Of a stretch of DNA of 64,000 nucleotides, positions 10,116 through 54,716 are shown one piece after another (position 1 is the stretch's first letter; the number at the start of each line of letters is the position of its first letter). The DNA lies in NCBI GenBank assembly GCA_011525665.1, contig WYAU01000075.1, forward strand, positions 124,001 through 188,000, written 5' to 3'. The position numbers and the translations under genes are program-made. The notes beneath the pieces were generated by a model. That model saw nothing but the letters and a program-made list of their open reading frames with translations, did no database searches and had not been told where the DNA came from. The DNA is from Candidatus Brocadia sp. (GTDB lineage Bacteria > Planctomycetota > Brocadiia > Brocadiales > Brocadiaceae).

Positions 10116-10167
10116 ATAATCTTCCGCGCTCCTGGTTTTATACGTAAGGTCATCAACGGAAAAATCA

Positions 10168-11667: not shown

Positions 11668-11683
11668 CAGGGAGGCACAAAAA

Positions 11684-13537: not shown

Positions 13538-16500
13538 TTAAAAAAGTGATTCCTCTTTTATATCAGGAATAACGCCGATTTCTTTCCCCTCATTTCGCTG
13601 GGCATACCTTTCTGCGCTCAATTCTCCCCGGAGAAATGCCTTTCTCCAGTCGTAAACAATCTGTCTTGTCTTATCCATAAGGGATAAAATATCTTTACCC
13701 CGTTCTTCCATAGGTGCATGCCATTGATGAATACCCTGGAAACCCGGTGGATTATGTATGGAATAACCAACGGCCAGAAGGCGAAACATGAGATCAAGGT
13801 CATCATGGCGAGGTACGGGTAAGTTTTCGATAAAACCGCCAATCCTGAGAAACCCATCCTTTCTGAACGAGGCTAACAGGGGTAACCAAAACTTATAGCC
13901 AAGCCGGGTGCTTTCCTTGCGGACGTAAGAATGTGTCAGTATTCGTTCTATATCCTCATGCCATATTTTGTCGATTTTCTCCTGATCCTCTTTTGTCAAA
14001 ACAACTCCCATTCTGGCGCTTACCCAGAGTTTGTTTTCCCATACATGAGGCTTGTAGAATTCCTCGAGCATTCTTTCCGAAAATAACACTTCCGGGTGTG
14101 TCCACAGGACAACGTCACCGCGCGATTGTTTTACAGCAAAGTTAAACCATCCTGCGTTTGGACCGGGACCTTCCTGCGGGATGAAAAAATATCGGACATT
14201 TAAGCCGTATTTTTGTACGGCACTACGAATAATTTCTCTCGAGTTGTCAGTGCTGCTGTCAATTATTAAAATCTCGAATGCCTGTCTTGGAAAGGTTTGT
14301 TTTCCGAACTGATACAGTGATCTTGCCATATATTCTGCTCTGTTAAAATTAAGCATGAAAACCGATAACAGAATTTTTGAGGTGTCGTAGTCTACTTTTT
14401 TTATGGAATACAAATCTTCAAGATTATTTCGGACCTCGTCTTTGAAATCATGTCTATGATCGATAAGCAAACACCGCAGAAAACAGGAAATAGATTCATC
14501 GTTGCGGCCCTGTTTCCGGTATAATTTACCAAGCAATACAAGACCGGCACTATTGTCCGGATGTTCTTTAACGCCTAACGATAACCATCTTTCCGCCTCA
14601 ACAAGATCGCCTTTTTGGATGAATATTTGCCCCATCGAATTATAAATGCCGGGGCTTTGACGATGCCGTTCGAGCGATACCCTCAGGTGTCTCTCTGCTT
14701 CATTTACATCTCCAAGATTTAGACAAGCCTCTCCCATCCGCCGATCAATCTCGTGTGACCGTAGCGGAACTTTTAGTGCGCTTTGTAATATATCTCTGGC
14801 TTCTCGGGGTGATCCTTGCCCTGAATAATAATCGCTTAATAGGAGATAGGCATCGAGGCATTTGGGATCATGGTAAATGATTTTTTTCAAATAGGGAAGT
14901 GTTATAATTCCCACACCCCTGTTATGCAGATATTTTGCCTGGCCCAATAATACGCGATCGGAAGTGCTATTCGTAAACTGTTTTATCTCATCATGATATA
15001 GTGTCATTCTGTCATGTGTATCACCATTTAGGACGGAAAATATTTCGCTTGCAAGAGACTCTTCGCTCTCCAGCCAAAATCCACGTCTTACGCCTTTTGT
15101 TTCGGCAATTTTTACATAATCCAATGAGGCGCCGGAAATAAAACATACATCAGTTTCTCCGTTCAGTGTAACAGCCCATTCTGGCATTTCATCGTTGTTC
15201 TCTGCCATATCGGGATGCCACCATTGCATTATGACGGGGTGTAACGTTTTTTTTATCTTCCTGAGCGTGTGCGGATAAATGTCCCTGCCCCCCAAAAGCA
15301 GCACTATATCAGGACGAAATTCCGATGTGCCTTCTACAAGCAGATGATTCATGACGTCGGCGTCCATTCGTGCTGTCAAATCAGTGCTAACAACATGGAA
15401 AACCGTGTGTTCATGTCTTGACAGACGGTCAACAGCGTTTTGTATTGTTTGGTGAAAAGTATTTTTGTCAAATGCATAAACAACGAGAATTTTGTATCGC
15501 TTGATTTCCGGCGAAGCGGAATTTGTGTTTTCGACGTATGCATCCCACTTTCGACAAAACAATTTCTGGCTCTTTTTCAAAAATTCCTTCGTTGTTTCAG
15601 CGGCTTCCGCATCCGCTCCGTGATCAATAATTACGCTTGCGGGACAATACATATTCTTGTACCCCGCGATGCGAACCCGCATTCCAAAATCGGCGTCAGC
15701 GCAATATTTCCCGAAGCTTTCATCAATTCCTCCGATTTTTTCCCAAACCTCCCTTTTCATGACCCAGTAATACCCATACTCCACTTCCCGAATATGTTTG
15801 CTTTCAGGAATCTGATCGGGTTCCAGTTTTTTTGTAAAATACCCTTTTGTTCCAGGGATCGGCTTTAACTGCGGATACTTTTTGCTCAGTATTTTATCAA
15901 TTATTCCCATGGAGCGAATGCATCCATCTGCTGTAATAATCAGTGGTGTGGCGGTTCCGTATGAGGGATCCTTTTTCAGGAGTGAAACAAGTGCGGTATC
16001 CCATCCATCCATAACTTCAATGTCATCGTTTACAAATCCGATATAGATGCCATGGGACAGATGAAATCCTCTGTTCATGCTTCTGTGCTGTCCTGTGTGG
16101 CATTGGTTATGTATGGTTGTAATATTCGGGTGTTTTGTCTTCATTTCGTCCAGCCATTCCCGTGTGCCATCAGAGCAGGGGTCGTCTACGACAATGATTT
16201 CAATATTTTGTTCGCTATTTCTTAACAGGCTTTCTATACATCTCTGAAGATGGGATTTGCGGTTGTATGTCGCGATAATAACCGATAAAGTCGGGTGTGA
16301 TGAGGTGCGTATTCCGGAACTATGGGCAGCGTGTTTTGCCTTATTTATCGTGTGCACAGAGCAGCCGTCCTGAAACACATCATTAAATATCTTTTGCAGA
16401 CGATGGTGAAAAGTATGTCTGGAGTTCACTTCCCGGTAGCCAGCCAGTGCAATAGTCTCCCGCTCTTCTTCATGCGACAGATAATATTCTGCCAGTTCTT

Positions 16501-18982
16501 CAATGTTGGCGTCATGAAAATAAACAAGCTGGATACGATCCCTGAATAGTTTGGATTCTTCCGGTATGCAGTTTGTGAAAACAAGGCTGCCGCACCCCAT
16601 GGCCTCAAAGACACGCTGTTGTATCCCCGTCTGCCCGATGCCCAGATTTAAGACAATCTTCGACTCGTTAAATCGTTTTACCATGTCATCCATAAAGGCG
16701 CGGCCTACAAAAAGATTAAATCGTTTTGCCAGCCGGTTGATCAGTGCCTTCCTGTTCGGATATACATTTCCGATAAAGCAGATATCATGCTCCTTTTTCA
16801 CAAGAAACATTTTTCTGTGGACTTCCGGACTCATTGCGAGCGGGAGGTATCGTGGGTCACGTACCCCTAATTCACGATACCGTTCCAATGCCATTTCGTC
16901 AAACGAATAGACCGTGTCAAATGCCCATCCATTATGAGATATGTGTTGCGGTGCATGATCAGTTGAAAAAACATCATCCTGATACCAGAGTATCGTTTTG
17001 TACGGCAATTTGCTGATCAATTCCGGAGGAATGCCATTGCCTTTTATAACAAGCATGACGTGGGCTTCGCGGGAAAACAATCCGGGCAAGCGATCAAAGT
17101 CCCTCCTAAAATCGGTATCAATTATGGTCACGCCATGCTTTTCGAGTGCCCGGTGGATTTCATTTTCCATTCCCCAGGGATGATTGGACCATCGCGCGCC
17201 TACAAGATGGATAACAAGGGGCTCTTCATAGTTATCTTTTCTGATGAATTGCCGCCCGTCTTCCTGCCGGACAAGCTGACACCCGGCATAGTCCTTTGAC
17301 ATAAGCTTTAATTTTGAGGCTGAGCCGGTAACAGAAATGAAAGTCGGTGCTGCGTCATTGTTTGTTTTCTCAAGGACACTGTTCTGCCGTGATGAACTTT
17401 GTAATATATTTTTTAGTATTTTATTGATTTCCCGGCGGAAATTCTCGATGTCCCACTGCATCCTCACAGAGGAATAAATTTTCTCACTCATTTTTCTGCG
17501 CAAGGCGTTATTCCTTGCCATATCTCGCATTTTCTGTGCCATATCGTCGACGTCTACATGGACGCCTTCAATAAAAATACCCTGATAATTTTTTCGTTCA
17601 GCGACTCGGCACAGGAATCCTGTTTCACCGTTGCGTACAAATTCATTCATAGGGGAGGCGTCAACAGTTATAACCGGCAGAGCACAGCCGATAGATTCAA
17701 GAAATGTCAGACCCAACCCTTCCCATTTGGATGGAAGCACCGCAACATCGGAATTTTGATACATTGTGATGATTTCTTTTCTGGGCACTGTTCCGGAGAT
17801 GATTCTGACGTTATTCCTTTGCTGAATGCCGGAACCGTTCTGTGTATGGATTAACAATTCCGCATTTACATCATTCAGCCTTTGGAATGCGTCAATAACA
17901 AACTGAGTTCCGCGACGAGCATGCAACCCACCCCATCCGGCAGGATGGAAAAATCTGACCGGCTTATTTCCCTGTTTCTCAATGGGTTTGAATAGGTTTA
18001 AGTCTATTCCCCATTGGACATACACGATATTATCCATCCCCAGCTTTTTAAATTTCTCGTAACAAGCGTGTGTAGGACAGATAATTTTATCGTAGAGGCG
18101 TTTGCACGCGGTGGCTAATTGGGGGTCAAATAATTCCCAGACGTAGTATCCGGCAGTCTTTAGCCCGCACTGTTTTGCAATTTCTACTAATCCAAGATCA
18201 TATTCTTCATTGAAAAAGACGACATCGAGATTGTTGTGTACCACCCAGTTTTTAAATATTTCATGGGGTATTTTGTATTCAGGGTATGCCGTAAGATTGG
18301 CGGTTTCCCATTCACCGGTAGTTCGTAACAGAGGTTTATCAAATGTTCCGCCGTTTCTTGCAAGGATAAATGTTGTATAATCGTAATCCAGTGCATCCCG
18401 GATCGTCTTTGTCACGTATGCCTGTCCTCGTTCGTACCACAGGCTTACGAATCCTATTTTATGGCAATGATGTATGGGCGTTTGCTGTAATAGAGGAAAG
18501 GGGACGTTACTTTTTAATTTTTCATGTACTTTTTTCAAATTATCCTGTGCTTCTTTGTAATTTCGTTCAAGCACAAGTGCCTTTTGAAAATAAAACTGTG
18601 CCTCGTTTAAGGCATTGTTTGCGTAAAGTATGACGCCTATGTTATTAAGTGCAGAGGCGTCACCGGGGTCTAGTTCGATGACCTTTTTAAGATGAATGAG
18701 GGCGTTATCAAATTGATGCGCTTTGTGATAAAGAAGGGCGAGTGTATAGTGTGCGCCACTAAAATGAGGATCTATTTCTATGGCTTTTTTGTAGAATTCA
18801 ATTGCCTTCTCCTGAAATCCATTTTCCCTGTAGGCTTCTGCCTCATCAAAATATTTTTGAGCTGGCGCTGTTGGCATAATGTGACAATATGTGTTTAACG
18901 GAGGCAAAACGGAACGGTGAAGTATCCCTGTGTCTGTCTTACAAAGGTTAACTACAGCAATATTTATACCAAAAACCTGCAT
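13538..18982 (-). CDS. Giant multidomain glycosyltransferase (TPR-GT4-CgeB-GT2-TPR-GT2)
   Basis: 1814 residues from the outermost ATG; about 1779 if the ATG at 18877, directly before the first TPR, is used. Neither has a clear SD. Approximate order: TPR 36-155; GT4-type GT-B 165-540 (SKWEGLGLTFLESIG); CgeB-like GT-B 590-885 (FIGNVYPNRKAL, QRVFEAMGCGSLVFTNC); GT2 from 900 (LSVIIATYNRKSHLQRC, VNDDIEV); a region of unknown fold 1165-1300; TPR 1330-1520; and a final GT2 from 1530 (LSVFMLNFNRAEYM). Four transferase domains on one chain suggest successive sugar additions. No signal peptide or membrane span is visible, so it is cytoplasmic. The acceptor is unknown. Confidence 0.85.
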   Translation of the reverse strand: MQVFGINIAVVNLCKTDTGILHRSVLPPLNTYCHIMPTAPAQKYFDEAEAYRENGFQEKAIEFYKKAIEIDPHFSGAHYTLALLYHKAHQFDNALIHLKKVIELDPGDASALNNIGVILYANNALNEAQFYFQKALVLERNYKEAQDNLKKVHEKLKSNVPFPLLQQTPIHHCHKIGFVSLWYERGQAYVTKTIRDALDYDYTTFILARNGGTFDKPLLRTTGEWETANLTAYPEYKIPHEIFKNWVVHNNLDVVFFNEEYDLGLVEIAKQCGLKTAGYYVWELFDPQLATACKRLYDKIICPTHACYEKFKKLGMDNIVYVQWGIDLNLFKPIEKQGNKPVRFFHPAGWGGLHARRGTQFVIDAFQRLNDVNAELLIHTQNGSGIQQRNNVRIISGTVPRKEIITMYQNSDVAVLPSKWEGLGLTFLESIGCALPVITVDASPMNEFVRNGETGFLCRVAERKNYQGIFIEGVHVDVDDMAQKMRDMARNNALRRKMSEKIYSSVRMQWDIENFRREINKILKNILQSSSRQNSVLEKTNNDAAPTFISVTGSASKLKLMSKDYAGCQLVRQEDGRQFIRKDNYEEPLVIHLVGARWSNHPWGMENEIHRALEKHGVTIIDTDFRRDFDRLPGLFSREAHVMLVIKGNGIPPELISKLPYKTILWYQDDVFSTDHAPQHISHNGWAFDTVYSFDEMALERYRELGVRDPRYLPLAMSPEVHRKMFLVKKEHDICFIGNVYPNRKALINRLAKRFNLFVGRAFMDDMVKRFNESKIVLNLGIGQTGIQQRVFEAMGCGSLVFTNCIPEESKLFRDRIQLVYFHDANIEELAEYYLSHEEERETIALAGYREVNSRHTFHHRLQKIFNDVFQDGCSVHTINKAKHAAHSSGIRTSSHPTLSVIIATYNRKSHLQRCIESLLRNSEQNIEIIVVDDPCSDGTREWLDEMKTKHPNITTIHNQCHTGQHRSMNRGFHLSHGIYIGFVNDDIEVMDGWDTALVSLLKKDPSYGTATPLIITADGCIRSMGIIDKILSKKYPQLKPIPGTKGYFTKKLEPDQIPESKHIREVEYGYYWVMKREVWEKIGGIDESFGKYCADADFGMRVRIAGYKNMYCPASVIIDHGADAEAAETTKEFLKKSQKLFCRKWDAYVENTNSASPEIKRYKILVVYAFDKNTFHQTIQNAVDRLSRHEHTVFHVVSTDLTARMDADVMNHLLVEGTSEFRPDIVLLLGGRDIYPHTLRKIKKTLHPVIMQWWHPDMAENNDEMPEWAVTLNGETDVCFISGASLDYVKIAETKGVRRGFWLESEESLASEIFSVLNGDTHDRMTLYHDEIKQFTNSTSDRVLLGQAKYLHNRGVGIITLPYLKKIIYHDPKCLDAYLLLSDYYSGQGSPREARDILQSALKVPLRSHEIDRRMGEACLNLGDVNEAERHLRVSLERHRQSPGIYNSMGQIFIQKGDLVEAERWLSLGVKEHPDNSAGLVLLGKLYRKQGRNDESISCFLRCLLIDHRHDFKDEVRNNLEDLYSIKKVDYDTSKILLSVFMLNFNRAEYMARSLYQFGKQTFPRQAFEILIIDSSTDNSREIIRSAVQKYGLNVRYFFIPQEGPGPNAGWFNFAVKQSRGDVVLWTHPEVLFSERMLEEFYKPHVWENKLWVSARMGVVLTKEDQEKIDKIWHEDIERILTHSYVRKESTRLGYKFWLPLLASFRKDGFLRIGGFIENLPVPRHDDLDLMFRLLAVGYSIHNPPGFQGIHQWHAPMEERGKDILSLMDKTRQIVYDWRKAFLRGELSAERYAQRNEGKEIGVIPDIKEESLF

Positions 18983-19341
18983 TTACGTGCATGTTCGTTT
19001 TGTTGTGAAAATGTAAGTCGTCTCTGCGTCGGCTGGATTTTACGCCTGCCATTACATCAAAAAAAAGAGCCCTGCGGTTACTGTGTGATGTTTTTTTGGG
19101 TTGAATGGAACGGAGGGCTGTATACGATGAAAAATAATTGTGGGAAAAATCGATGAAATTGTTGAAATTGTAAACGTTTTTCGTATTTTATAGTTTGCTC
19201 TGTAAAAACTTCTTTTTTTTGTTAAGTTTTTACCGCTCCTTCGTCCCCTCCTTGTGAAGGAGGGCATGAAGGGGCGATTGTCTTTGGTTGCGGCTATGCT
19301 GCGCTAGGGTATGAGAAGTTTAAACAGTTTGCTGGCTAGCG
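18983..19341. other. Intergenic region between two giant glycosyltransferase genes, 359 bp
   Basis: AT-rich spacer between the stop of the 1190-residue gene and the start of the 1814-residue gene. It holds the inverted repeat at 19246-19264 and poly-T/poly-A tracts. No promoter is clear enough to call. A 71-codon frame at 19052-19267 starts inside the repeat and looks spurious. Confidence 0.5.
19246..19264. repeat. Perfect 8-bp inverted repeat, REP-like hairpin
   Basis: Arms CCCTCCTT (19246-19253) and AAGGAGGG (19257-19264) are separated by 3 bases, within a longer G-rich block up to about 19275. It lies 78 bases past the stop of the 1190-residue gene. There is no T tract on either strand, so it is not a standard terminator. 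It may slow transcription or be a dispersed extragenic palindrome. Confidence 0.55.
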
Positions 19342-22300
19342 TCAGTTTTCAGCTTTTTTCTCCGATGCTCTTGCTATTTTTTTGATATTTTCCTGCGCTT
19401 CTTTATAATCGGGTTCTAATGCTAATGCCTTTTCAAAACATACCCTGGCATCTTTATAGAGGGCATTTTTAAAATATAATACTCCCAGATTGTTATACAG
19501 GGAGGCGTCGTCACCACTTAATCGGGTTGCTTTTTTATAAGCCTCCAGGGCGTCATTTATTTTTCCGCATCTTTGATATGCGATCCCGATGCCGCACAGG
19601 GCTGTCACATCGATAGGATTGGTTTTCAGTACTTTTGAGTAGAGTTCGATGGATTCCTCGATATTTCCTGATTCCAGCGCCTGTTGCCCTTGAGTGACGA
19701 GGACGGTGTTGGTATCAATCAAACTACTGTGTAATTCAAGCATCTGCTCATAGTCAGCAGTGGGCCATTTTTCTCTGAACTTTGACTCATTGAGAGAGAG
19801 TGTGTTTCGATAATCAATCTTGTTTTCTCTAAAGGTCTGACTTCTGAAATGATGGATAAATACACTCTCATCCACCATAATGGCATAACCTTTTTCGCGG
19901 ACCATTAAACACAGGTCGTCATCCTCGTAGTTTCCTGTGCCAAAGGTTTCATTCAGTCCTCCAACTTCGTTATAAAGAGTCTTCCGTATAAGAACTGCAA
20001 AACCTGCGATACGGAGGCGGGGGGTTAGCCTTCCCCGATATGTTTTTCTGATTTGGTGGGCAAATTTATGGAATCCTTCCTCGTCATGATATGGAATGGA
20101 TATTACCTGCTGTCTGCCACTGATGGAGTTTGTGATGGGGCCCACCATTCCGATTTTTTCATCCCTCTCAAGACTTTCCACCAGGCCTTCCAGCCAGCCG
20201 TCGGAAACAAGGACATCATTATTCAGCAGCATCACGAATTCTCCGCAGGCTGTTTTAACACCCTGGTTATTGGCGGCCGCAAAGCCCCTGTTTTCCGAGT
20301 TTTCAATAAGGCTATAGTCGGGATATGCTTTCATCAGTTTGCGAAGGTACTCAACGGTGCCGTCTGTTGACGCGTTGTCCACGAAAATGATCTCATGGGG
20401 ATAGCGCGTGTGATCCTGGATGGAGCGGATGCATCTTTTTGTATATTCCAGGGCGTTCCACGTCAGGATAATAACGGAAACAACCTTTTGCGGTGTGTTC
20501 GTTGACGATCCGTCTTTACCAACAGGGGGCATATAATAGCGTTGTATTTTCTTATTTTCATTCATTTCGATTAATCCGGTTTCCCTGATGACGATATCCG
20601 GTGCAATCCTGCCGAGCCATTTATCATGCAGACGTCGAATGTTTTCGTAAAGTTTTGAAAACCGTTCCGGGCCGCTGGTGGATTCATGATGGATGACGAC
20701 ACTTTCTGGCTGATAGACGAGTTTCCATCCCTTTCCCTGAAGTTTGAAACACAAATCGACATCCTCATATCCATTCCAATATCCTTCATCAAATTCTCCG
20801 GCATCATTAAATGCTGATTTCCGTACAAGCAGACAGGCGGCGGTAAGCGCCTGATAGGTTCTTTGCTGGTTTGCTTCGGGCAGATCCGCTGGTTCATGGG
20901 CGTAAATATGTATAGCCGATAAAGGGTCATTTACGCTTTTATTATCAGTAATAATAACTCCTGCATGTTGTATGGTCTCATCAGGAAACAGAAGTTTACT
21001 TCCTGCCGCTGCTACAGAATCGTCTCTCATGAGGATTTCAAGAAGCGGTTCCAGCCAGCCAGGCTTGGGTTCCGTATCGTTGTTTAAAAAAAGAAGGTAA
21101 TCCGTCGATGCCGTTCGTGCCCCCTGATTACAGGCCCTGGCAAATCCGCGGTTCCTGTCATTGGTGATAATTGTAATATTGCCTTCCATACACTGAAGAA
21201 AATCCTTCGTGCCATCCGTTGAAGCGTTATCGATGATGATGATTTCATACAATTCTCTCGGAGTATTTTTCATTAGTGCCGCAATGCATTTTTTCGTATA
21301 TTTAACCTTGTTAAAGACGGGAATAATAAGAGAAACTCGTTTATTTCCCTCTTTAGTGTAAGGAGGATAAACCTCTGCGTTGTCTTTCGATGTCGGTTTT
21401 TGCCAGAAATTTGTCGTCATTTCCTTCTGTGCTTTTACTACATGCGGTTTTCCCGAAGAATATTCTCTATATTTTTTATAGACAATCGAAAGGGTATTGA
21501 AAAATTCAGCTCTTTTTATGCTTGTCATACTTGTGCCATCTGTTCTCCAGGTAAATTCGCAGGTGATTTTTCTGATGTGAATAAATTGAAAAAGCCTTGA
21601 CATGCGAATCCATAAATCCCAATCCTCAAGGACTTTCAGAGATTCATCAAATAATCCTGTACTGTTCAAACAATTCTTTTCATGCATAACGCAAAGAACG
21701 GGAATGAAATTACTCACAAGGATATAATCATCGTTGAAATCATAAGAATAAGGCACATCTCTTCTTTTCGTGACATACTTTCCTTCATCCTTTTCCTGAT
21801 GTACACGGTATGCATCGGTATACGCCACTTTATGGCCTCTGTTTTCCAAAAAATTAACGAGTGTTTCCACATGATCATCGTAAAAAATGTCATCATCGTC
21901 AAGGTAGGCAATATATTTCCCCTGTGCAGCGTTGATTCCCGTATTTCTGGAGGATGCAAGACCTTTATTTCTATCGTGAACACAATATTTGACAGATAGC
22001 CGGTTGCGGAAAGTGTCTATAATACCTGCGACATCTTCTCCCGCATCATTTACTACAATTGCTTCGATATTTTTGTATGTTTGTGCTGCAATACTTTCCA
22101 GTGCTCTTTTCAGTGTGTTGGGTCTGTTGTATGTGGGTACTATTATCGATACGAGGGGGGAGAACGGCACTTGTTTGTGAGTGCAATTTTCCACGATGGA
22201 TTGCGCTTCTGCTATGATATTCGCGCTGTAAAGGTTCGGGTGATTCAAGACGATCCGGGCTGTTAATTCACTATGATGTCTGAGGGCATTAGTATACATG

Positions 22301-22914
22301 CTGCTTTCTTTTACACGATACAAAAATAACGGTTCCGGTATTCTCCTCCCATAAAAACCTTTTTCGCCACAACCGATCCAGAAATCCCAGTCCTCATACC
22401 CCATGGCCATATTAGGATTATATCCTCCTACCGCTATCCAGGCTTCTTTTCGATACAGTGAACAATAATTAAGATGGTTTTGTGCGCGGAGGCGTTGAAA
22501 ATCATATTCTCCACTCTGGACAATTTTATTCGACTGGCCAAAATATTTTACATCGGTATACGCAATGGCAATTTCCCGATACTGCTCTAATAATGAAACT
22601 GTTTTATGTAACATTTCCGGGTGTAACAGATCATCCGCATCCAGGGGTAGCATATATTTTCCGGTCGAAGCTTTCATCCCGGTATTTCGTGCATTTGCCA
22701 AACCGCTGTTTTTCTGGTTTATAAGCCGAATTTTCTTATCAGTGTATTTGCTGATCAAGGAACGGGCAACCGGGCATGTGTTATCGTTACTTCCGTCATT
22801 GACTATTATACATTCCCAGTCGGTAAATGATTGTTTGACTACCGATTCTAATGCTTCCGGCAGGTAGTTTGCCTGATTATAACAGGGAATAATTATTGAT
22901 ACAGTAGTGCTCAT
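19342..22914 (-). CDS. Four-module GT2 glycosyltransferase with C-terminal TPR
   Basis: 1190 residues holding four consecutive family 2 glycosyltransferase domains: from ~4 (VSIIIPCYNQANYL), ~251 (VSIIVPTYNRPNTL), ~525 (VSLIIPVFNKVKYT) and ~808 (VSVIILTWNALEYT). Their DxD-like motifs read PLDADD, YLDDDD, LNNDTE and LNNDVL. Domains 3 and 4 share IIIDNASTDGT / IFVDNASTDGT and look like an internal duplication, with rhamnosyltransferase-like NASTDG signatures. TPRs fill residues ~1078-1185. The start ATG overlaps the stop of the 2492-residue gene (ATGA), so the two giants are translationally coupled. No membrane segment is seen. Sugars and acceptor unknown. Confidence 0.88.
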   Translation of the reverse strand: MSTTVSIIIPCYNQANYLPEALESVVKQSFTDWECIIVNDGSNDNTCPVARSLISKYTDKKIRLINQKNSGLANARNTGMKASTGKYMLPLDADDLLHPEMLHKTVSLLEQYREIAIAYTDVKYFGQSNKIVQSGEYDFQRLRAQNHLNYCSLYRKEAWIAVGGYNPNMAMGYEDWDFWIGCGEKGFYGRRIPEPLFLYRVKESSMYTNALRHHSELTARIVLNHPNLYSANIIAEAQSIVENCTHKQVPFSPLVSIIVPTYNRPNTLKRALESIAAQTYKNIEAIVVNDAGEDVAGIIDTFRNRLSVKYCVHDRNKGLASSRNTGINAAQGKYIAYLDDDDIFYDDHVETLVNFLENRGHKVAYTDAYRVHQEKDEGKYVTKRRDVPYSYDFNDDYILVSNFIPVLCVMHEKNCLNSTGLFDESLKVLEDWDLWIRMSRLFQFIHIRKITCEFTWRTDGTSMTSIKRAEFFNTLSIVYKKYREYSSGKPHVVKAQKEMTTNFWQKPTSKDNAEVYPPYTKEGNKRVSLIIPVFNKVKYTKKCIAALMKNTPRELYEIIIIDNASTDGTKDFLQCMEGNITIITNDRNRGFARACNQGARTASTDYLLFLNNDTEPKPGWLEPLLEILMRDDSVAAAGSKLLFPDETIQHAGVIITDNKSVNDPLSAIHIYAHEPADLPEANQQRTYQALTAACLLVRKSAFNDAGEFDEGYWNGYEDVDLCFKLQGKGWKLVYQPESVVIHHESTSGPERFSKLYENIRRLHDKWLGRIAPDIVIRETGLIEMNENKKIQRYYMPPVGKDGSSTNTPQKVVSVIILTWNALEYTKRCIRSIQDHTRYPHEIIFVDNASTDGTVEYLRKLMKAYPDYSLIENSENRGFAAANNQGVKTACGEFVMLLNNDVLVSDGWLEGLVESLERDEKIGMVGPITNSISGRQQVISIPYHDEEGFHKFAHQIRKTYRGRLTPRLRIAGFAVLIRKTLYNEVGGLNETFGTGNYEDDDLCLMVREKGYAIMVDESVFIHHFRSQTFRENKIDYRNTLSLNESKFREKWPTADYEQMLELHSSLIDTNTVLVTQGQQALESGNIEESIELYSKVLKTNPIDVTALCGIGIAYQRCGKINDALEAYKKATRLSGDDASLYNNLGVLYFKNALYKDARVCFEKALALEPDYKEAQENIKKIARASEKKAEN

Positions 22915-25900
22915 TGATTTGTATTAACAAAATCAAGGGAAATTTCCTGGTGGCAGGCATTGGGGGTAAAACCTGCGTATTTTTCGATGTCTATTCTGTA
23001 TCCTTCTCCAAATTTAATTGCAAGCATTTCACGGGAATAGCAATGCTCATTTCCGGAGCGATTCTCGCAAACGTCCTGCACTTTATTCACCGGCGCACAA
23101 AACGTCAGAGATAATTTGTTACACAGAAGCATAGGCCTTGCGGATGCATATATACGTTTATTGGCATCCATTTGATTTTCCAGGATGTTGGGATTTGAGA
23201 AATTAATCTGAACAAGCAGAGGGTAGAGTTCTTTGACCCGGTACAATGAACTAGAAACTTCCAGAGGATAACCAAAATCCCGCTCTGCGGACGTCCAGTC
23301 GTATTTTAAAATATCATCCGGAATATGAGTGAATGCCGGTATATTTTGTGGAGAATCCACAGTGTAACAATACGCGGTATTCTCGCCGAGCCGCAAAGAA
23401 AATCCTATGGCGTTTGTATTTTCTTTCAGAATGTCTGCTAAATGAGAAATATGAAAATTTCTCAAAAAAATATTATCATCCACCAAGAATAGAACATAGG
23501 TATACTGTCTGAGAAGCGACAATACCTGTTCTTTAAAATTTTGTTCCGTTATAAATTCTGTATTGCCGTAATATTTTTTCAAGTCTTCATAGTGATTTTT
23601 GTGCAGCGGATGGGATGCTTTATAAATTACCTTGGTATCAATTACCGCCGCATCTTTGCAATGCATATAAAATGATCTCAGCGTACCATCCAGTTGCATC
23701 GCTCTGTCCTTGCTGAATATCAATCCTAATATTTTATGAAAAGTTTTTGCAGATGAAGTTTCTTTCAGGATCTTATTCACTTTCTCAAGATTATCTCGCG
23801 CCTCTTTATAAGTATCCTGCATGAGCAAAGCTATTTCACAATAAGTCTTTGCATCCAAATACCTGCATTTTTTGAATGATAATGCACCAAGGTTGTTATA
23901 AACAGAAGCATCATTGGGGCACAAGTGAATTACTTTTTCAAGAATTTCAATGGCATTCTCTGTCTGATTTGTTTTCGCATAGGCAATTGCAAGGCTGAAG
24001 TATGCGTCGGGAAAATAAGGATTTATCTCAATGGTTTTTTGGTAATTGTAAATCGCCTCCTTATACGTCCCCTTGCTAAAATATTCTTCTGCTTTTTTAA
24101 AAAAACTGAAATGGGTATCTGCCGGCGTGCAGTCTTTATTTGCCGGCAACCGATCATCGTTTGAAATAACCTGTACGATGGGTAACTCATTGTTTACTGT
24201 TTTTTTAGAAGCGTTTGCGGGGTTCGATTTTTCCATATCCACGTGATAGCCGACAGTAAATTGATCGATAAAATGTTTTTCTTCCAGTGCGAAAAGATAC
24301 CGTGGAATCCAATTGCCAAATAAATTTCGTATAATTTCAACATTAGTATCATGCAGATGCTGGTGTTCCGGGAGGGTCCATGCCACCCGTGCACATTCCT
24401 GAGCCAGCAGCTTAAAAAAGCCGCCGTTAGGAACTATTTCCTTTATTTCCAATCCGAATATATGGCTGAAATGTCTGTACCATTGTGGTGAAAATCCGCC
24501 GTAATAATGATAGGGGAGTTGATGTAATCCTGAACCTAATGGTGCAGTAACCAGCATTCTTCCACCCGGCCTTAAAATTCGTGACATTTCGCGTAAAGCA
24601 GCTATCGGCTCAGGAACATGCTCAAGTACTTCGGTGCACAAAATAACGTCAAAAGAACTATCCGGTACCGGTATATCGGTAATTTCAGATATATAGTCAA
24701 TATTTCCGTATTCTGTAGTATTGCCAAGCTTAACTCCCTTATACTTTTTAAAATCATGTGTCTTATAATCACAATGATCAAAGAGGGAACGATACGGACA
24801 TGTTCCTGCTCCAACATCTAATACCCGTGACCCGGCCGGAATACTTACAGCCTTTTCCCGAATCCATTTGTCACGTGACTTCTGGTTAAAATCGTGAATT
24901 TTTTCTAAAGGAAGTTCAGAAACTGCTGTAGATACCAAAGGAGGGATATTCGTGAATGCCGAAATGTCTGGGAGCGGTATTTTATCCGGCGCTTCAATAC
25001 AGTTTTCTTTAATCACCGCGTGAAGTTGTCTTGTCCATATTTGGTGAGTAGAATTTTCTCCATCGGTAACCGTACTTTCCCGGAGCAATCTCTCAGCGGT
25101 AATTAGTTGATCATCTAAATGAACATTTCTGGATTTTATTGCGACTACTTCTACATTTGACAAATAAGGTTCATGTTTCCATGACCAATGACGAACGTTA
25201 CGGCATTCAAATCCTAATTCTTTAAGGGTGTGTTCAAATCTCTCCGCAAACCAGTGGTCCTTATGATACGCCAAGGGTGCGGCCTGATCTCCGGCTATAT
25301 GGCGAACAACACCCATCTTGATTTTCAGGGATACGCCGGAAATCAACGTCTTTGCGCTGCCAATTAAATCAGGTGCCTCAATATGCAGCTTACCGCCGAT
25401 TCGTAACCATTTGTGCCATTTAATAATCGTTGCCAAGGCGGTTACCCGGTCAAAATGCTCAAATAGATGATGGGATCGGATTTCATCCACGCACTCCGCC
25501 GGGCAATCAAGCGTGATAATATTTGCATACATATCCGCTTTCACATCCATCACGTTGTGTTCGGAGGGGGGGTAATCAATATTTACGTATCCGTCAAGAT
25601 TCTTTTCACCGCATCCAAGGTGAAGTCTCAGCGGCTGTCCATCATTCCACATTCCGGCCTTACGCAATTGGTCTAATATATTGCAATTAGGTGTTATTGT
25701 ATAAGCGTGCTCCGTCGATCTGGGATTAAGAGATGCATCCGTATTCCTGAAATCTGAATCGTTCAGCATGTTCTTATTCCAGATTAAACGTCTTGGTTCC
25801 GGTAGCTTTATTGGTACAAAATGTTTCCATCTTTCTGAATAAAGCTTTATATCAAGATTGCTATACCGAAGATTTGCTTTCTTCTGATTATCCAGTATAT

Positions 25901-28900
25901 TATTATGTTTCACAAGGGAGCATGGAAGGGGAATCAATGTTTTGCCGTTTTGATAGAGTTTTAAACAAAGGTCACTATCAGCACAGTAAAACTGGTAATC
26001 TTCATCCAGTCCGCGTACCTCGTTGAAAGATGTTCTTCTTAACAACCCGTAATTCATTAGTAGCTTTTGCCCATAGGTAAAATCTATACCAAATACCTCC
26101 CATCCGGGATCGGCGATCACATTTTTATAGAAGAAAATACCTCCGGCAACCGATGTATTTTGTTTATTCAGTATTGTAACAGCCTTCGTTATGCATTCGT
26201 CATTAAAAATAATGTCATCGCTTGCATACATTACCCATTTGCCCCGAGTTTTTGAAAAACCGAAGTTATATAATTGAGGCCAGGAATGTCTGCCTTTACC
26301 CAGATATTCTGTTTCATTATAAATTTGCGTAATACCATGTTTTTGCAAAATTTCTAAGGTATTATCGGAGGAATTGCCCTCAATAGCAATAACCTCATAA
26401 CGTAAACCAGGGGTAGCTTTTGCCAGGCTTGTAAGCATTTCATCAAGAAGATTGGAGCGATCTTTTGTTGCGATAACAATGCTAACGTCAACTATGCCGG
26501 ATAAATTGCATTCCTCCCGGAGAGGGGAGCTATCAAGAGAAGACACTTGATTGAGCAGTGTAATGTTTTCTTTTGCTATTATGTTAGTGTTATCAATACG
26601 TAAGACTTTTTCCAAAAGATGCCTTGCTGTAGTGTAGTTTTTTTCATGAATGTCAATGACAGCAAGATTGTTTAATGCATCAATATGTTTATCATCGGCC
26701 TCTAGCATTCTCTCCAGTATTTCACGCGCCTGTGAATAATTTCTTTGTTCAATTAATTTTTTCACTTCGTAGAGTGATTTATGAAAATATACCTGATTCT
26801 CTAAGTATTTGGCATTTTCGCGTGCAATCTGATTGGCCGGATCGATTTGAAGGACTTTCTGCAATATCTCTTGCGCAGATTTCCAGTCTCTTTCCATCAT
26901 CCTCGCCACGGCAAAATTATTAAGCGCTTTCACATTGTAGGGAGATTGGTGAAGAACTTCTGTTAATAGTTCTTTTGTTTTTTGAACATCGCCACGTTGT
27001 AATGCTTGTTTGGCCTGTTTATTTATTTCATTCGCGCTCTCTCTTACGGATTGATGCTTTTCGTATATATCTTCATACAGTCTGCGGTATTTGTTTGCCT
27101 GGATTTCAAGCGCATATAACTCCTCAGCCTTTTTACGACAGCGCTCAGATAATTTCACCATCGTCTCTTCAGAGGAAGACATTATCCAGTTAATCCCTTT
27201 AGCCAGATCTTCAGCGTCCATCGGCTTTGCAACGTAGCCATTTTCCTTGTGGTCTATCATGTCGGAAATCCCGCCGATATTGAATCCGACAACCGGCGTT
27301 CCGCATGACAGAGATTCAACGACTGTATTAGGAAGGTTATCCTCGACTGACGGTATAACAAACAAATCCGCCATACTATACGCCATAGCAAGTTGTTTTG
27401 TCTCTGTAATGACGCCAATATTTTTAACCGGATACTGTATATTTACTGCTACGTTATCGGGGAGATGTCCGAATGTAACAAGAACAACTTTATGCTTTTC
27501 AGTATCCGAGAGGTTGTTCAGGGCTTTTAAAAGATAGATAAACCCCTTTCTCTTATTAATTACAGAATCTGCTCCAAAAAGTATTATTTTTGCAGATGTG
27601 TCTATCTGAAAAGACTCCCGCGCATCTTTTTTATTATAGGGCTTGAAAGTATCGACAGGGCAACTGTTCGGAATAATGCTTACGGGAAATTGTGAAAACA
27701 GGCTGCTTTCCGATGCGCACTTTGCAAGCCACTTGCTCGGAGATACGATATGTAAATTCAGTAATGGATACGCGTCGTATTTCTTTCTCCATCCGATGTT
27801 TGAAAGGTCATGTTCATTTTCCGATCCCAGTTGCGGGCATTTCCCGCATGCCGTTGTGTAGCGTCTGCAATCTCCCGTATAATGACACCCGCCGGTAAAG
27901 GGGTTCATATCGTGTATTGTCCAGACAATGGGCTTTCCTGCCAGAGAAAATGGCGCTTTCTTGCAGTCAAGCACGCCGTTTACCCAGTGCAAATTTATGA
28001 CATCTGCATCCTGAACCTCTTTTATAAGCTCAAGCCGAACGTCGGAATCTGCATCGCGGAAAATCTCTAATCCTTCGGGTCTCTTTGGGTAATGAGTCAG
28101 TAACGTTCCCCATCTCTGTGCCTGCTTCTGCCACGTTAGCGAATCATGGTTCGGAATATCAATGCACGGCGTCATAGGACCAGAATAGGTATCAGGTATT
28201 ACTTTTACGCTGGCATCTTCGCTCATTTTATTCAGGACAAGCAGTGTAGAATTCACGCCGACCGACAGAAGTCCACGATGAAGCCTGTATGCAGCCCCTC
28301 CGGCTCCTCCAAAGTCCTGCATGCAGAGGTGAACAATTTTTATTGCCCTTTTCTCATTATCCCTTATCATAATGAATTTTTCCTTTTTAATTGCCTCAAC
28401 GAATAGTGAGTCGGGTTTACGCACTGAGCCATCAGGTTCAATATCCAGTAAGTAAGAGTTAAAATCCGGGATAAGGGACTCATAGGCGCTGCATATCCTG
28501 ATTTCTTCAAACCCGGCTTCTTTCAGCAACGCGGGTAGTGAGTAACGGTCATACATCCACTGATGGTTTTGACCGGAAAGCATGAAGCGGCCAATCTGCT
28601 CTGGCGTCATTTCTGATTCAAAAGCAACGCGGTCTTCTCTCCGGGAACCGTGTGAATGGTTTCTCAGGTAATTTATTGCATGGAGCGCCTCGGAACCGCA
28701 TCTTTCTATAACAAACGATTCAGCGGGTATAGGGTTTTGTTCCCAGTATTTAAGCATTTCACCACCCGATACCCTGCGCACCATCTGATCGAAAAGCTCA
28801 AGCATAATCCATTCATACCGTTTCTGCGCATCCTGGTCTCCGTTAATGCACTTTTCCAATAAAGTTGAGTACCATTTAATTATTTGTTCAAGATCCGGGA

Positions 28901-30389
28901 CAACCACGCGAATAATTCCGCCATCTTTGAGAACCCGGCGGCATTCGTTCATAAATCTTTTGGCGTCGCTTTTTGAGAAGTGCTCAAGGAGATGAGAATG
29001 GTAAACTACATCAAAGGAATTGCTGCCAAAAGGGATGCCACTGCTCAGATCATGAGCAATTACGCCCGGTCCGGTTGAATTAAAATCAACATTGATCCAG
29101 CCCTCTTTGTAATGTGAACCGCAACCGAGATTGAGTAGCTTTGCAATTCTCTCTTTCTCCTGCCCGTCACCGGCGCCATGTCTATTTTCCTCACACGCTC
29201 TATCGTCCTTCTCATGAAGCAAAATATCCGATATATCAGCTAATATTCTTTCATAACATCTTCCAAATTCGTACCGATAAAAATTTTCAAGGCAGTTCTT
29301 TGTAAAGTGCGCATAATGTTGCATTATTTTTTCAAAAATACTTTTTCCTAGTTCTCTTGCGTCATTAACTACCGTTCCGCAGCCGTTGTTCTCCACGAGT
29401 TCCTGCATTCCGGGAATATTGTTACCGATAATCGGAACCCCTGCCCTCATAAAATCATATAATTTTCCTGATGATCCGGCAGCGTACTTTAAATTGGTAT
29501 CGACTGGCTCAAAAAAAACCAGCCCGATGTCGGCAGATTGAAAAATCGTGTATTTCTCTTTTGGGTGTACAATATCTGTAGATAAAAATATTTTCCCCTT
29601 TTTTGAATGCATTCTGGAAAGAACTATAGATTCAAACTTTTTATCCGGGATCCACCCGTGGAGCACTAAAACAAACTCGTCCGGCCAGTTATCGACGGAT
29701 TCCAAAATTTTGTCCACGCAATGAATAGGGAGCAGGGTGCCGGTTGCCAAAACTATTTTTTTGTCTTTAGGGATAGTGAATTTTTTATGAAAATAATCAC
29801 TCTTTTCAGGTAGCGCTTCTCCAAAAGCGCTGTTGTAAGCTATCTTTATCTTGTTTCTTTTAATGCCATTCAGTTGTGATAAAATGTTTGCCCTAACATC
29901 ATCCTGTGTAAGGGTAAGAATTGCCCTTTGGGAAAACCATTTCTCTGCGTTTTTTTCTGGCCCGGAGCGGTCGTTTATTTCGAGAGAATGATAAACATAA
30001 GGGACCTTCCAGTATGAGCTCAATAAACCTGACCTGGCCAATCCTTCCGGATCGAATCCGATTATCCAATCATAGTGTCTTGGAGGCGATATATAATGAG
30101 AAACAAATTCTAAAGTATCTTGTGAAATGTGTATATCCGGGGGGGGCGTGACGCTCATGTGAGTATCTGCTCTGCTTTTGTATATACGGATGTTCTCTTC
30201 ATGCAAATGGGGAATGCCAATTCCGAGAGCAGTGCATATTTCATCATCGGCTACGAAAATATCTACCATGTAGCCCTTTTGGGAAAGGAAAGTGGCCGTC
30301 ATTATAACAGGCGTGGAGATACCAACCCATCCGTGTGCTGTGACAAGAGCTACTGTCTGATTGTCTTTTCCGGCGGTTTCTTTATTCAT
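22911..30389 (-). CDS. 2492-residue glycosyltransferase/methyltransferase megaprotein
   Basis: Approximate modules in order: GT4 1-400; SAM methyltransferase from 418 (LNLGCGSHYKEGW); second GT4 from 683 (LCMQDFGGAGGAAYRLHRG, IPSVEDNLPNTVVESLSCG); TPR 1120-1290; GT2 from 1300 (VSIVIATKDRSNLL, YASDDI); methyltransferase from 1586 (LHLGCGEKNLDGY); methyltransferase from 1850 (VLDVGAGTCPYRSL, LCTEVLEHVPEP); TPR 2093-2210; and a C-terminal domain from 2216 beginning LGLIFSKDRAMQLDGTLRSF with VDDN as a possible DxD motif. SD GAGG precedes the ATG. Its stop overlaps the next giant gene. It probably builds and methylates a glycan on a TPR-held acceptor; this is inferred from modules only. No signal peptide or membrane segment. 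Confidence 0.87.
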   Translation of the reverse strand: MNKETAGKDNQTVALVTAHGWVGISTPVIMTATFLSQKGYMVDIFVADDEICTALGIGIPHLHEENIRIYKSRADTHMSVTPPPDIHISQDTLEFVSHYISPPRHYDWIIGFDPEGLARSGLLSSYWKVPYVYHSLEINDRSGPEKNAEKWFSQRAILTLTQDDVRANILSQLNGIKRNKIKIAYNSAFGEALPEKSDYFHKKFTIPKDKKIVLATGTLLPIHCVDKILESVDNWPDEFVLVLHGWIPDKKFESIVLSRMHSKKGKIFLSTDIVHPKEKYTIFQSADIGLVFFEPVDTNLKYAAGSSGKLYDFMRAGVPIIGNNIPGMQELVENNGCGTVVNDARELGKSIFEKIMQHYAHFTKNCLENFYRYEFGRCYERILADISDILLHEKDDRACEENRHGAGDGQEKERIAKLLNLGCGSHYKEGWINVDFNSTGPGVIAHDLSSGIPFGSNSFDVVYHSHLLEHFSKSDAKRFMNECRRVLKDGGIIRVVVPDLEQIIKWYSTLLEKCINGDQDAQKRYEWIMLELFDQMVRRVSGGEMLKYWEQNPIPAESFVIERCGSEALHAINYLRNHSHGSRREDRVAFESEMTPEQIGRFMLSGQNHQWMYDRYSLPALLKEAGFEEIRICSAYESLIPDFNSYLLDIEPDGSVRKPDSLFVEAIKKEKFIMIRDNEKRAIKIVHLCMQDFGGAGGAAYRLHRGLLSVGVNSTLLVLNKMSEDASVKVIPDTYSGPMTPCIDIPNHDSLTWQKQAQRWGTLLTHYPKRPEGLEIFRDADSDVRLELIKEVQDADVINLHWVNGVLDCKKAPFSLAGKPIVWTIHDMNPFTGGCHYTGDCRRYTTACGKCPQLGSENEHDLSNIGWRKKYDAYPLLNLHIVSPSKWLAKCASESSLFSQFPVSIIPNSCPVDTFKPYNKKDARESFQIDTSAKIILFGADSVINKRKGFIYLLKALNNLSDTEKHKVVLVTFGHLPDNVAVNIQYPVKNIGVITETKQLAMAYSMADLFVIPSVEDNLPNTVVESLSCGTPVVGFNIGGISDMIDHKENGYVAKPMDAEDLAKGINWIMSSSEETMVKLSERCRKKAEELYALEIQANKYRRLYEDIYEKHQSVRESANEINKQAKQALQRGDVQKTKELLTEVLHQSPYNVKALNNFAVARMMERDWKSAQEILQKVLQIDPANQIARENAKYLENQVYFHKSLYEVKKLIEQRNYSQAREILERMLEADDKHIDALNNLAVIDIHEKNYTTARHLLEKVLRIDNTNIIAKENITLLNQVSSLDSSPLREECNLSGIVDVSIVIATKDRSNLLDEMLTSLAKATPGLRYEVIAIEGNSSDNTLEILQKHGITQIYNETEYLGKGRHSWPQLYNFGFSKTRGKWVMYASDDIIFNDECITKAVTILNKQNTSVAGGIFFYKNVIADPGWEVFGIDFTYGQKLLMNYGLLRRTSFNEVRGLDEDYQFYCADSDLCLKLYQNGKTLIPLPCSLVKHNNILDNQKKANLRYSNLDIKLYSERWKHFVPIKLPEPRRLIWNKNMLNDSDFRNTDASLNPRSTEHAYTITPNCNILDQLRKAGMWNDGQPLRLHLGCGEKNLDGYVNIDYPPSEHNVMDVKADMYANIITLDCPAECVDEIRSHHLFEHFDRVTALATIIKWHKWLRIGGKLHIEAPDLIGSAKTLISGVSLKIKMGVVRHIAGDQAAPLAYHKDHWFAERFEHTLKELGFECRNVRHWSWKHEPYLSNVEVVAIKSRNVHLDDQLITAERLLRESTVTDGENSTHQIWTRQLHAVIKENCIEAPDKIPLPDISAFTNIPPLVSTAVSELPLEKIHDFNQKSRDKWIREKAVSIPAGSRVLDVGAGTCPYRSLFDHCDYKTHDFKKYKGVKLGNTTEYGNIDYISEITDIPVPDSSFDVILCTEVLEHVPEPIAALREMSRILRPGGRMLVTAPLGSGLHQLPYHYYGGFSPQWYRHFSHIFGLEIKEIVPNGGFFKLLAQECARVAWTLPEHQHLHDTNVEIIRNLFGNWIPRYLFALEEKHFIDQFTVGYHVDMEKSNPANASKKTVNNELPIVQVISNDDRLPANKDCTPADTHFSFFKKAEEYFSKGTYKEAIYNYQKTIEINPYFPDAYFSLAIAYAKTNQTENAIEILEKVIHLCPNDASVYNNLGALSFKKCRYLDAKTYCEIALLMQDTYKEARDNLEKVNKILKETSSAKTFHKILGLIFSKDRAMQLDGTLRSFYMHCKDAAVIDTKVIYKASHPLHKNHYEDLKKYYGNTEFITEQNFKEQVLSLLRQYTYVLFLVDDNIFLRNFHISHLADILKENTNAIGFSLRLGENTAYCYTVDSPQNIPAFTHIPDDILKYDWTSAERDFGYPLEVSSSLYRVKELYPLLVQINFSNPNILENQMDANKRIYASARPMLLCNKLSLTFCAPVNKVQDVCENRSGNEHCYSREMLAIKFGEGYRIDIEKYAGFTPNACHQEISLDFVNTNQ

Positions 30390-30398
30390 TCAGTATCC

Positions 30399-31187
30399 TC
30401 AGCACGTGTAGTTCGCTTTTATCTGAGGCACTCCGAGAAAATAGATACCCCACGTATCAAAACCCGGTGATTTATTGCTCATCCATTCGGCACAATATTT
30501 TTGCTTAAAACCGGATAATGTTAAAAAATACTCAACTTCCGGTATGAAGAGATATCTCATACTGTGTGTTTCATTAATTTCTGAAACCCTCCCTGTTTTT
30601 TTATCTGTGACCACAAGGTGATAATTTACATCGACCCTGTTCTCATTTGGAAAAAGTCCCGGTTCGGCAATGCGAATAATGCTGATTTTTTTATTTTCAA
30701 CTCTTTTGATGCGTCTTTCCGGCTTTTGTGTCAATACGGCAGGACCATACCAGCAGTCAAAAATAAACAGGCCGTCCTTCTTCAAATGCGCTTTGGCCGT
30801 TTCAAAAAACTTCAAAAGGTCATTGTTTGTCACCTGGTAACTGATTACATGAAACAGAGAAATAACAACGTCGTAGGTTTTGTTTGTTCTGTAGGTGCGC
30901 ACATCGCCTTTATGAAACTCCAGGTGCCTTTGAGATTCACCGGTATCTGTAAGTTTTGCGTGTACCTTTCTGATGTTATATTCTGAGCAGTCTATTCCTG
31001 TAATATTGTATCCTTTTTGCGCTAAACGAAAATCATGGTTTCCCGTGCCGCAACCGAGATCCAGGATTGTTTTTGCAGAGGGGTGGTTTTTTTTAATAAT
31101 AGTATCGATAAAGCCTGCCTCGGAAGCATAATCCTTGTCGTTGTAAATAATATCATAATACTCAGCGTATTTATCAAACACCTTCAT
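30399..31187 (-). CDS. Class I SAM-dependent methyltransferase
   Basis: 262 residues with the class I SAM-binding motif ILDLGCGTGNHDFRLAQKG at about residue 40, then GIDCSE and VVISLFHVISYQ. The domain fills residues 1-190, with a short C-terminal extension. SD GAGGTG lies 5 bases before the ATG. Its start overlaps the stop of the aminotransferase gene by 4 bases, and it ends 9 bases before the 2492-residue gene. The tight packing suggests it acts on an amino sugar made by the neighbouring aminotransferase, possibly as an N- or O-methyltransferase. The acceptor is unknown. Confidence 0.85.
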   Translation of the reverse strand: MKVFDKYAEYYDIIYNDKDYASEAGFIDTIIKKNHPSAKTILDLGCGTGNHDFRLAQKGYNITGIDCSEYNIRKVHAKLTDTGESQRHLEFHKGDVRTYRTNKTYDVVISLFHVISYQVTNNDLLKFFETAKAHLKKDGLFIFDCWYGPAVLTQKPERRIKRVENKKISIIRIAEPGLFPNENRVDVNYHLVVTDKKTGRVSEINETHSMRYLFIPEVEYFLTLSGFKQKYCAEWMSNKSPGFDTWGIYFLGVPQIKANYTC

Positions 31188-39110: not shown

Positions 39111-39151
39111 GAAATGCTCTTAAAAAGTAAGTTGTGTTATTTTTTGCTTCG

Positions 39152-41453: not shown

Positions 41454-41454
41454 A

Positions 41455-42468: not shown

Positions 42469-42478
42469 AGAGAAACAC

Positions 42479-43558: not shown

Positions 43559-43582
43559 AATAACTTTTTCATTGACGAGATG

Positions 43583-53497: not shown

Positions 53498-53604
53498 TTT
53501 TACTCCTATCGGAAAAAGGTTTAAAAAGTGGTAGTTTTACGATGACAATTTAGCAAACATTGTACCATCTGAAATACAGTCGTAAACAATGAAGCAATAA
53601 AGTC

Positions 53605-53631
53605 CTATCGTATATTTTGGTAAATAGTTAA
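53605..53631 (-). promoter_or_regulatory. Possible sigma-28-like promoter for fliW-csrA
   Basis: Minus-strand TTAA (53631-53628), 15-base spacer, TACGATAG (53612-53605). It matches the sigma-28 consensus at 3 of 4 and 5 of 8 positions, much weaker than the site at 33172. The position, after the flgL terminator and about 110 bases before fliW, is what supports it. Confidence 0.3.
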
Positions 53632-53689
53632 AGATTGTTTTGTGCTCTCAGTGTTTGTTAAAAATATGATCGTCGGGAAGGGAGGGGGG

Positions 53690-53724
53690 AAAATTCTTCC
53701 GGCTGGGTGTGGGCCATGGAAGAA
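53690..53724 (-). terminator. Intrinsic terminator after flgL
   Basis: On the minus strand TTCTTCC (53724-53718) pairs with GGAAGAA (53700-53694), with a smaller GGC/GCC stem inside the loop. TTTT and then C-rich sequence follow. It lies 46 bases past the flgL stop and separates the flg operon from fliW-csrA. Confidence 0.5.
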
Positions 53725-53769
53725 GGGGGTATAATTTCTTTACAATAATGATAAATTTTGCAACGGGTT

Positions 53770-54681: not shown

Positions 54682-54716
54682 GGTTTACTCCTTTCTCATT
54701 ATAATGCCTCTTCGTA

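Follow-up and report, generated by a model that had tools for sequence, protein, structure and literature searches.

Giant multimodule glycosyltransferase and methyltransferase proteins encoded among flagellar genes of a Candidatus Brocadia genome

Enzymes in which several glycosyltransferase (GT) domains share one soluble chain and act on one glycan are known from the chlorovirus PBCV-1. A064R has been shown biochemically to carry two GT domains followed by a methyltransferase (MT) domain (PMC9614988), and A111/114R contains three putative GTs (PMC7826918); a 2022 review counts a three-transferase-domain enzyme among the few described (PMC9614988). In this work, we describe three adjacent minus-strand genes in a 64,000-nucleotide stretch of Candidatus Brocadia sp. 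(assembly GCA_011525665.1, contig WYAU01000075.1, positions 124,001 to 188,000; hereafter the window, from whose first base features are numbered). They encode giant proteins with a total of 12 GT and three MT modules, together with tetratricopeptide repeat (TPR) blocks. As in A064R, at least two GT modules and an MT module are joined in one polypeptide. However, the viral proteins have three modules as compared with seven in protein 1, and no TPR has been reported for them. The giants are a much larger, new form of multidomain glycosyltransferases such as A064R, and the literature searched contained no paper on giant multimodule glycosyltransferases of this kind.

Other described systems share single traits with the giants. 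The flagellin GT2 protein of Clostridioides difficile type B (CDR20291_0242) also unites a GT and an MT domain; it is responsible for two rhamnoses on flagellin-bound N-acetylglucosamine and has been proposed to function in their methylation as well (PMC5207246). It has only one domain of each type, however, and the other GTs of that system are separate genes. In Klebsiella O7 ORF6 and O12 WbbB, too, a single chain holds GT and MT modules along with other catalytic ones (PMC11231755), but these enzymes make an O-polysaccharide of repeating units that leaves the cell through an ABC transporter, and the spacer of O7 ORF6 is a coiled coil instead of TPRs. OGT and SPINDLY place a TPR superhelix ahead of a GT, and the TPR stretches of all three giants match those of OGT and SPINDLY in sequence; in the giants, the TPR blocks precede GT2, GT4 or GTAX modules (see below for the last) or close the chain. 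Membership in the OGT/SPINDLY family was rejected because no GT41 occurs among the Pfam matches listed (25 of the 34 for protein 1 and 25 of the 26 for protein 3). Finally, polyketide and peptide megasynthases resemble the giants in carrying many catalytic modules per chain, in their conserved module order, and in the gain, loss and exchange of whole modules. This likeness is one of organization only, since neither a carrier protein nor thioester chemistry was seen in the giants.

Three giant proteins and their modules

The window contains three long stop-free open reading frames (ORFs): 22911-30389 (protein 1, P0001, 2492 aa), 19342-22914 (protein 2, P0002, 1190 aa) and 13538-18982 (protein 3, P0003, 1814 aa, for which an in-frame ATG at codon 36 is the likelier start). 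The genes for proteins 1 and 2 share four bases (ATGA). A preliminary description, made by reading this DNA without database searches, had reported three adjacent genes of 2492, 1190 and about 1800 residues with this overlap, and had listed GT4, CgeB-like, GT2, methyltransferase and TPR domains in them; all of this was recovered here. Its three MT domains also agree with our count, while its figure of at least nine GT domains was too low: the total is 12, because the C-terminal module of protein 1, which belongs to no known family, has a GT-A fold. The same description had named two outcomes that would speak against it. One of these, an assembly artefact joining separate genes, can be ruled out, because giants homologous to these are encoded in the complete genome of Ca. 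Brocadia pituitae (AP021856.1) and by the isolate Geomonas edaphica (3045 aa, on a 1.15-Mb contig). The other, a lack of catalytic residues in most transferases, is considered below.

Modules were assigned using Pfam and hidden Markov models (HMMs) built from the window's own modules. No convincing transmembrane segments were found in the three proteins. Protein 1 has the order GT4-MT-GT4-TPR-GT2-MT-MT-TPR-GTAX. It begins with GT4a (residues 8-392; 29214-30368), a weak GT4-type match with a variant motif (PF00534, 26.0 bits against a cut-off of 26.4; PF13692, 26.3 against 27), followed by MTa (410-670; 28380-29162), an S-adenosylmethionine (SAM) methyltransferase of the Methyltransf_11 type with a conserved LGCG glycine loop, and the GT4 glycosyltransferase GT4b (681-1110; 27060-28349; best PF00534 stretch 920-1088). 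TPR block 1 (1115-1290; 26520-27047; TPR_19 and related Pfam families) separates these from GT2a (1298-1511; 25857-26498; PF00535, E 8.5e-16; motifs ASDD and ADSD) and from two further SAM methyltransferases, MTb (1583-1790; 25020-25643; found by our own MT HMM at 1583-1744) and MTc (1810-2050; 24240-24962; Methyltransf_11, best stretch 1857-1946, and Methyltransf_23). TPR block 2 (2093-2210; 23760-24113; TPR_2 and others) then leads to GTAX (2215-2492; 22914-23747).

Protein 2 has the order GT2-GT2-GT2-GT2-TPR. Its modules are GT2b (1-245; 22180-22914; PF00535; VNDGS, DADD and GYEDWD conserved in nine genomes), GT2c (250-470; 21505-22167; PF00535; motifs NDA, DDDD and ED), GT2d (522-765; 20620-21351) and GT2e (806-1062; 19729-20499), the last two assigned by Pfam and alignment, followed by a TPR block (1069-1175; 19390-19710; TPR_1 and others). 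Protein 3 begins with TPR block 1 (41-155; 18518-18862; Pfam) and continues with GT4c (166-530; 17393-18487; PF00534; EX7E motif from E421), a CgeB-like module (559-880; 16343-17308; Glyco_trans_1_2 and DUF3880) that is a separate gene in several relatives, GT2f (894-1145; 15548-16303; PF00535; NDD motif kept in Kuenenia), a stretch without Pfam or NCBIfam match (1150-1375; 14858-15535), TPR block 2 (1380-1530; 14393-14845; TPR_19, best stretch 1424-1480) and GT2g (1533-1790; 13613-14386; PF00535, 49.3 bits), in which HPE stands in the place of DxD.

The last 278 aa of protein 1, that is, GTAX, match no Pfam or NCBIfam family and have no sequence relative in the PDB. The preliminary description had called for structure prediction of each module; for GTAX, the AlphaFold model (mean pLDDT, the predicted local distance difference test score, 79) matches GT-A glycosyltransferases in Foldseek, the best being GnT-I (E 9.2e-9), with TarP and SpsA also found. 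The model makes GTAX a GT-A-fold glycosyltransferase whose family neither Pfam nor NCBIfam contains. Its motifs SKDRA and VDD are invariant, and relatives occur as stand-alone proteins of 281-341 aa in other Planctomycetota. Loci L132, L133 and L134 of distant Planctomycetota show such stand-alone genes; in L134 the gene lies directly behind an MT gene that by eye resembles MTc. For residues 1150-1375 of protein 3, AlphaFold gave a pLDDT of 41 and Foldseek no match below E 0.1, and a counterpart was found in two of 294 Planctomycetota genomes, namely the source genome (G000) and Ca. Kuenenia hertensis (G025).

Catalytic motifs were judged by eye from a regular-expression listing and from alignments. 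The expected motifs are present in all GT2 modules except GT2g; those of GT4a and GT4b are variants, and the three MT modules retain the glycine loop. In protein 2 the GT2 motifs are kept across the nine aligned genomes, save in one homologue that lacks GT2d. G025 served as the comparison genome for the proportions of nonsynonymous (pN) and synonymous (pS) differences. Across modules, pN ranges from 0.08 to 0.43 and pS from 0.45 to 0.94, with pN well below pS in every module; ratios are not quoted, since pS is saturated in several modules. GT4a is 57% identical to its G025 counterpart (pN 0.27, pS 0.75) and GT4b 79%, and conservation is lowest in residues 1150-1375 and TPR block 2 of protein 3. 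By this measure, every module is under purifying selection. Dead domains were rejected for all modules but GT2g, which is uncertain. A loss of catalytic residues from most transferases did not appear: the expected motifs are found in nearly all modules.

Order and exchange of modules among relatives

The series MT-MT-GTAX-GT2-GT2-GT2-GT2, which is spread over two genes in the window, recurs partly or wholly in single proteins of 0.9-3.5 kaa in Geomonas, Nitrospira, Ignavibacteria, Thiotrichales and others. From the continuity of the series elsewhere, the junction between P0001 and P0002 is therefore taken to be a split within it. The order survey comprised 79 named loci gathered with two peptides, both of which lie within GT2b; for this reason the presence of GT2b is a selection effect, while that of the other modules is not. 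GTAX has a GT2 directly behind it in most of the 22 ORFs that contain it. Examples include a single Thiotrichales chain of 2717 aa (L071) with the order MTb-MTc-GTAX-GT2b-GT2c-GT2d, where GT2d is assigned by best match only, below the test threshold, and the 3045-aa chain of G. edaphica, which reads GTAX-GT2b-GT2c-GT2d and onward; in the latter, the Pfam matches comprise six GT2 and two GT4 stretches, and one further module is recognized by the GTAX HMM.

For a test of order, ORFs in which two or more modules could be assigned with confidence were used, and each module was assigned to the best window module, under thresholds of our own choosing and at a single setting. In 26 ORFs from outside Brocadiales, 107 module pairs are in window order and one is reversed, as compared with 54 on average and at most 80 in 20000 shuffles. 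The search for the same domain order in other genomes, which the preliminary description had proposed, thus gave partial or whole recurrence. The sole reversed pair is a swap of MTc and MTb in a Methylomicrobium metagenome-assembled genome (L074, 917-8335). Note that these loci were used for more than one descriptive comparison (selection, codon divergence, order and flagellin linkage); order and codon patchiness (see below) were subjected to shuffle tests, and the rest are uncorrected counts.

Named matches place the relatives among the anammox Brocadiales, and the window accordingly in Ca. Brocadia. Within Brocadiales, differences between relatives involve whole modules. Protein 2 is conserved over its length in eight relatives, apart from an exact in-frame loss of GT2d in the G031 homologue; in six of the eight, a CgeB-like module is fused in front. 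The gene ahead of protein 2 is variable, with MTb-MTc often kept; this pair also occurs in G001, G004, G007, G008, G024, G030 and G031, as well as in Thiotrichales L071. The Kuenenia chain carries an insertion of a sulfotransferase and a TylF methyltransferase between GT4a and MTa, and it is divided ahead of TPR-GTAX. For Ca. Brocadia sapporoensis, the protein encoded next to the protein 2 homologue is 2723 aa long (L022, 6011-14182) and contains pyruvyltransferase-like, FkbM methyltransferase, GT9, GT2, MT, GT2 and GT4 domains. Protein 3 can be followed through successive fusions: TPR, GT4 and CgeB are separate ORFs in G004, TPR-GT4 adjoins CgeB in G001, TPR-GT4-MT-CgeB is fused in G006, G009, G012 and G028, and long forms occur in the source genome and Kuenenia. 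Read from these gene comparisons, module borders are where insertion, loss, fusion and splitting have taken place in Brocadiales.

Codon divergence between G000 and G025, measured at residues shared by both as the fraction of codons that differ, varies along proteins 1 and 2 with an unevenness reached in none of 2000 permutations. It is 0.24-0.39 in P0001 1500-2492 and P0002 1-210 and 0.45-0.60 in several other stretches, with 0.56 for flagellar core genes. The patchiness is best read as a probable exchange of module blocks, with differing codon constraint as the alternative.

Genomic context and possible acceptors

The giant genes sit between genes for flagellin, FliD and FliS on one side and flgL and flgK on the other, with similar placement in relatives. 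In contig coordinates, the flagellins map to 113.3 and 121.1 kb, flgL to 178.3 kb. Left of the window are a flagellin, FliD-like and FliS-like genes (names that rest on our reading of the sequences), a second flagellin, and GT2-TPR genes. The locus has the arrangement of a flagellin glycosylation island, with glycosylation genes beside flagellar genes in a placement that relatives keep. In six Brocadia genomes (G000, G001, G004, G006, G008 and G009), the distance from protein-3-type genes to flagellin is 8-16 kb, and giants with MT-MT or four GT2 modules are 3-24 kb from flgL in G000, G001, G004, G008 and G010; given their shared ancestry, these genomes do not count as independent cases. Among 40 loci with a chain of at least three modules, 10 (nine of them outside Brocadia) contain a flagellin/FlgL-type gene, where about 0.65 would be expected from a rough density of three such genes per 3.63 Mb in G000; Pfam confirmed all flagellin cases tested.

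In the mechanism that we propose, the three proteins would be a modular glycan-building system of fused GT and MT chains spaced by TPR blocks. Before export of the flagellar proteins, they would equip these in the cytoplasm with one defined O-glycan or a few, built and methylated mostly in sequence. Sugars would be added one at a time from activated nucleotide sugars. Proteins 1 and 2 would be halves of one module series, since GTAX-GT2-GT2-GT2-GT2 is one chain elsewhere, while protein 3 would be a second, flagellin-linked unit derived from a fusion of TPR-GT4 and CgeB genes, to which GT2 modules were added later. The TPR blocks would serve as docking parts for the acceptor or a partner, and a species could change its glycan by taking up, dropping or swapping modules. 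Cytoplasmic assembly on the protein, the flagellin acceptor, the binding role of the TPRs and the roughly ordered transfers are features that we infer. Overall, we regard this reading, in which the chains transfer sugars and methyl groups to flagellar proteins in the cytoplasm and mostly in sequence, with docking by the TPR blocks, as somewhat probable. Successive action of GT, GT and MT domains within a single chain has a direct precedent in A064R (PMC9614988), and the action of a GT-MT protein on flagellin has one in C. difficile GT2 (PMC5207246). The preliminary description had pictured an assembly line building a defined oligosaccharide on one bound protein. Its picture is supported in part: it gains from selection on all modules, order kept across phyla, module-wise insertion, deletion and fusion, and flagellar placement in several Brocadia. 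A stronger version would be a colinear glycan megasynthase. In it, the sequence of modules would dictate in which order sugars and methyl groups are attached to a glycan carried by a protein, the growing glycoprotein would be held by TPR blocks, and species would redesign the glycan through module exchange, as in polyketide synthases; the kind would be spread over many phyla and include a GT family outside the libraries used. This we regard as unlikely.

Several points weigh against the flagellar assembly reading. GT2g has HPE where DxD is expected in both genomes compared (source and Kuenenia), the family match of GT4a is weak, and about 225 residues of protein 3 have no family or fold match. 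The conserved order may reflect common descent instead of functional order. The loci were gathered with peptides from GT2b, and the expected number of flagellin loci was estimated roughly from gene density. The G025 homologues are on contigs without detected flagellin, and many of the remaining matches come from Bacteroidota and Cyanobacteria; many of those in Bacteroidota carry related GT2 arrays. Flagellin is not expected in either group, and the wider family therefore serves other acceptors too. The anammox surface-layer (S-layer) protein is heavily O-glycosylated and methylated (PMC5088730), and for this reason it is the main rival acceptor; the glycan in Kuenenia is a highly methylated hexasaccharide (PMC5088730).

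The giants might accordingly build the methylated O-glycan of an S-layer or matrix protein, assembling it on that protein or on a lipid carrier from which it would be transferred afterwards. The G025 contigs without detected flagellin fit such a role, as does the presence in the genome of polyprenyl-phosphate transferases, flippases and Wzy/ligase-type genes. However, matches to the polyprenyl initiator (PF02397), flippase (PF01943) and Wzy/ligase (PF04932) families are found solely on other contigs and none on that of the giants, and flagellar genes flank the giants of the window on both sides, a placement that homologues keep in other Brocadia; we consider this alternative rather doubtful. 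Since initiator, flippase and ligase genes are absent from the cluster, it was not assigned to a Wzx/Wzy or oligosaccharyltransferase pathway. Synthesis of lipopolysaccharide or capsule polysaccharide of the ABC-transporter type, by analogy with WbbB or O7 ORF6, has in its favour that multimodule GT-MT enzymes are established there (PMC11231755), but the flagellar gene context and the lack of a polymerase, flippase or initiating transferase match on the contig (no dedicated Wzm/Wzt search was made) leave it improbable. Much the same low standing is given to the view that the modules are merely fused and co-expressed and act independently on different acceptors, their order being descent from an ancestral giant gene. 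Modules do occur as free genes or split chains in relatives, order is inherited along with sequence, and MTc and MTb are swapped in L074; on the other hand, several phyla keep the order despite insertions, duplications and losses, and the parts of split chains remain next to each other and overlap slightly.

The surroundings are rich in sugar genes, including those for a nucleotidyltransferase and a dehydratase of the RmlA/RmlB type, aminotransferases, NeuB, a CMP-sugar synthetase, a PIG-L protein and a sulfotransferase. On the minus strand, a SAM methyltransferase (30399-31187) and a DegT aminotransferase (31184-32293) form a tight gene run with the giants (30399-32293), and 36438-42492 encodes a MptE/MAF-like plus MT protein (890 aa), a WbqC-like protein, a 315-aa ORF, the CMP-sugar synthetase and NeuB; the flagellar genes fliW, flgL-like (with a flagellin domain), flgK, flgI and flgE-like occupy 53030-63911, also on the minus strand. 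The 890-aa protein (36438-39110) combines a MptE/MAF-like domain, Methyltransf_24 and a weak second methyltransferase match. Two ORFs of the sugar-gene run have no Pfam family (34598-36370, 590 aa, and 39847-40794, 315 aa), and two radical SAM/SPASM genes adjoin NeuB at 42479-44584. On the plus strand, opposite to the giants, 9177-13445 encodes an epimerase, a B12-binding radical SAM protein and a transketolase split over two genes, possibly a sugar-modifying set. Locus L033 (11784-17277) has three GT2-TPR genes (601, 601 and 508 aa) next to the flagellin, of which the two 601-aa ones look like close paralogues.

Significance

The comparisons above suggest that whole surface sugar chains may be built by a few swappable multi-enzyme chains. 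With seven- or eight-module chains whose order is kept across phyla and whose modules are swapped between species, glycan structure would be partly readable from the gene. Cultured Geomonas offers a test bed for comparing module order with sugar order, and such chains would supply parts for building glycans to order. The finding also bears on the surface chemistry of the anammox bacteria used in wastewater treatment.
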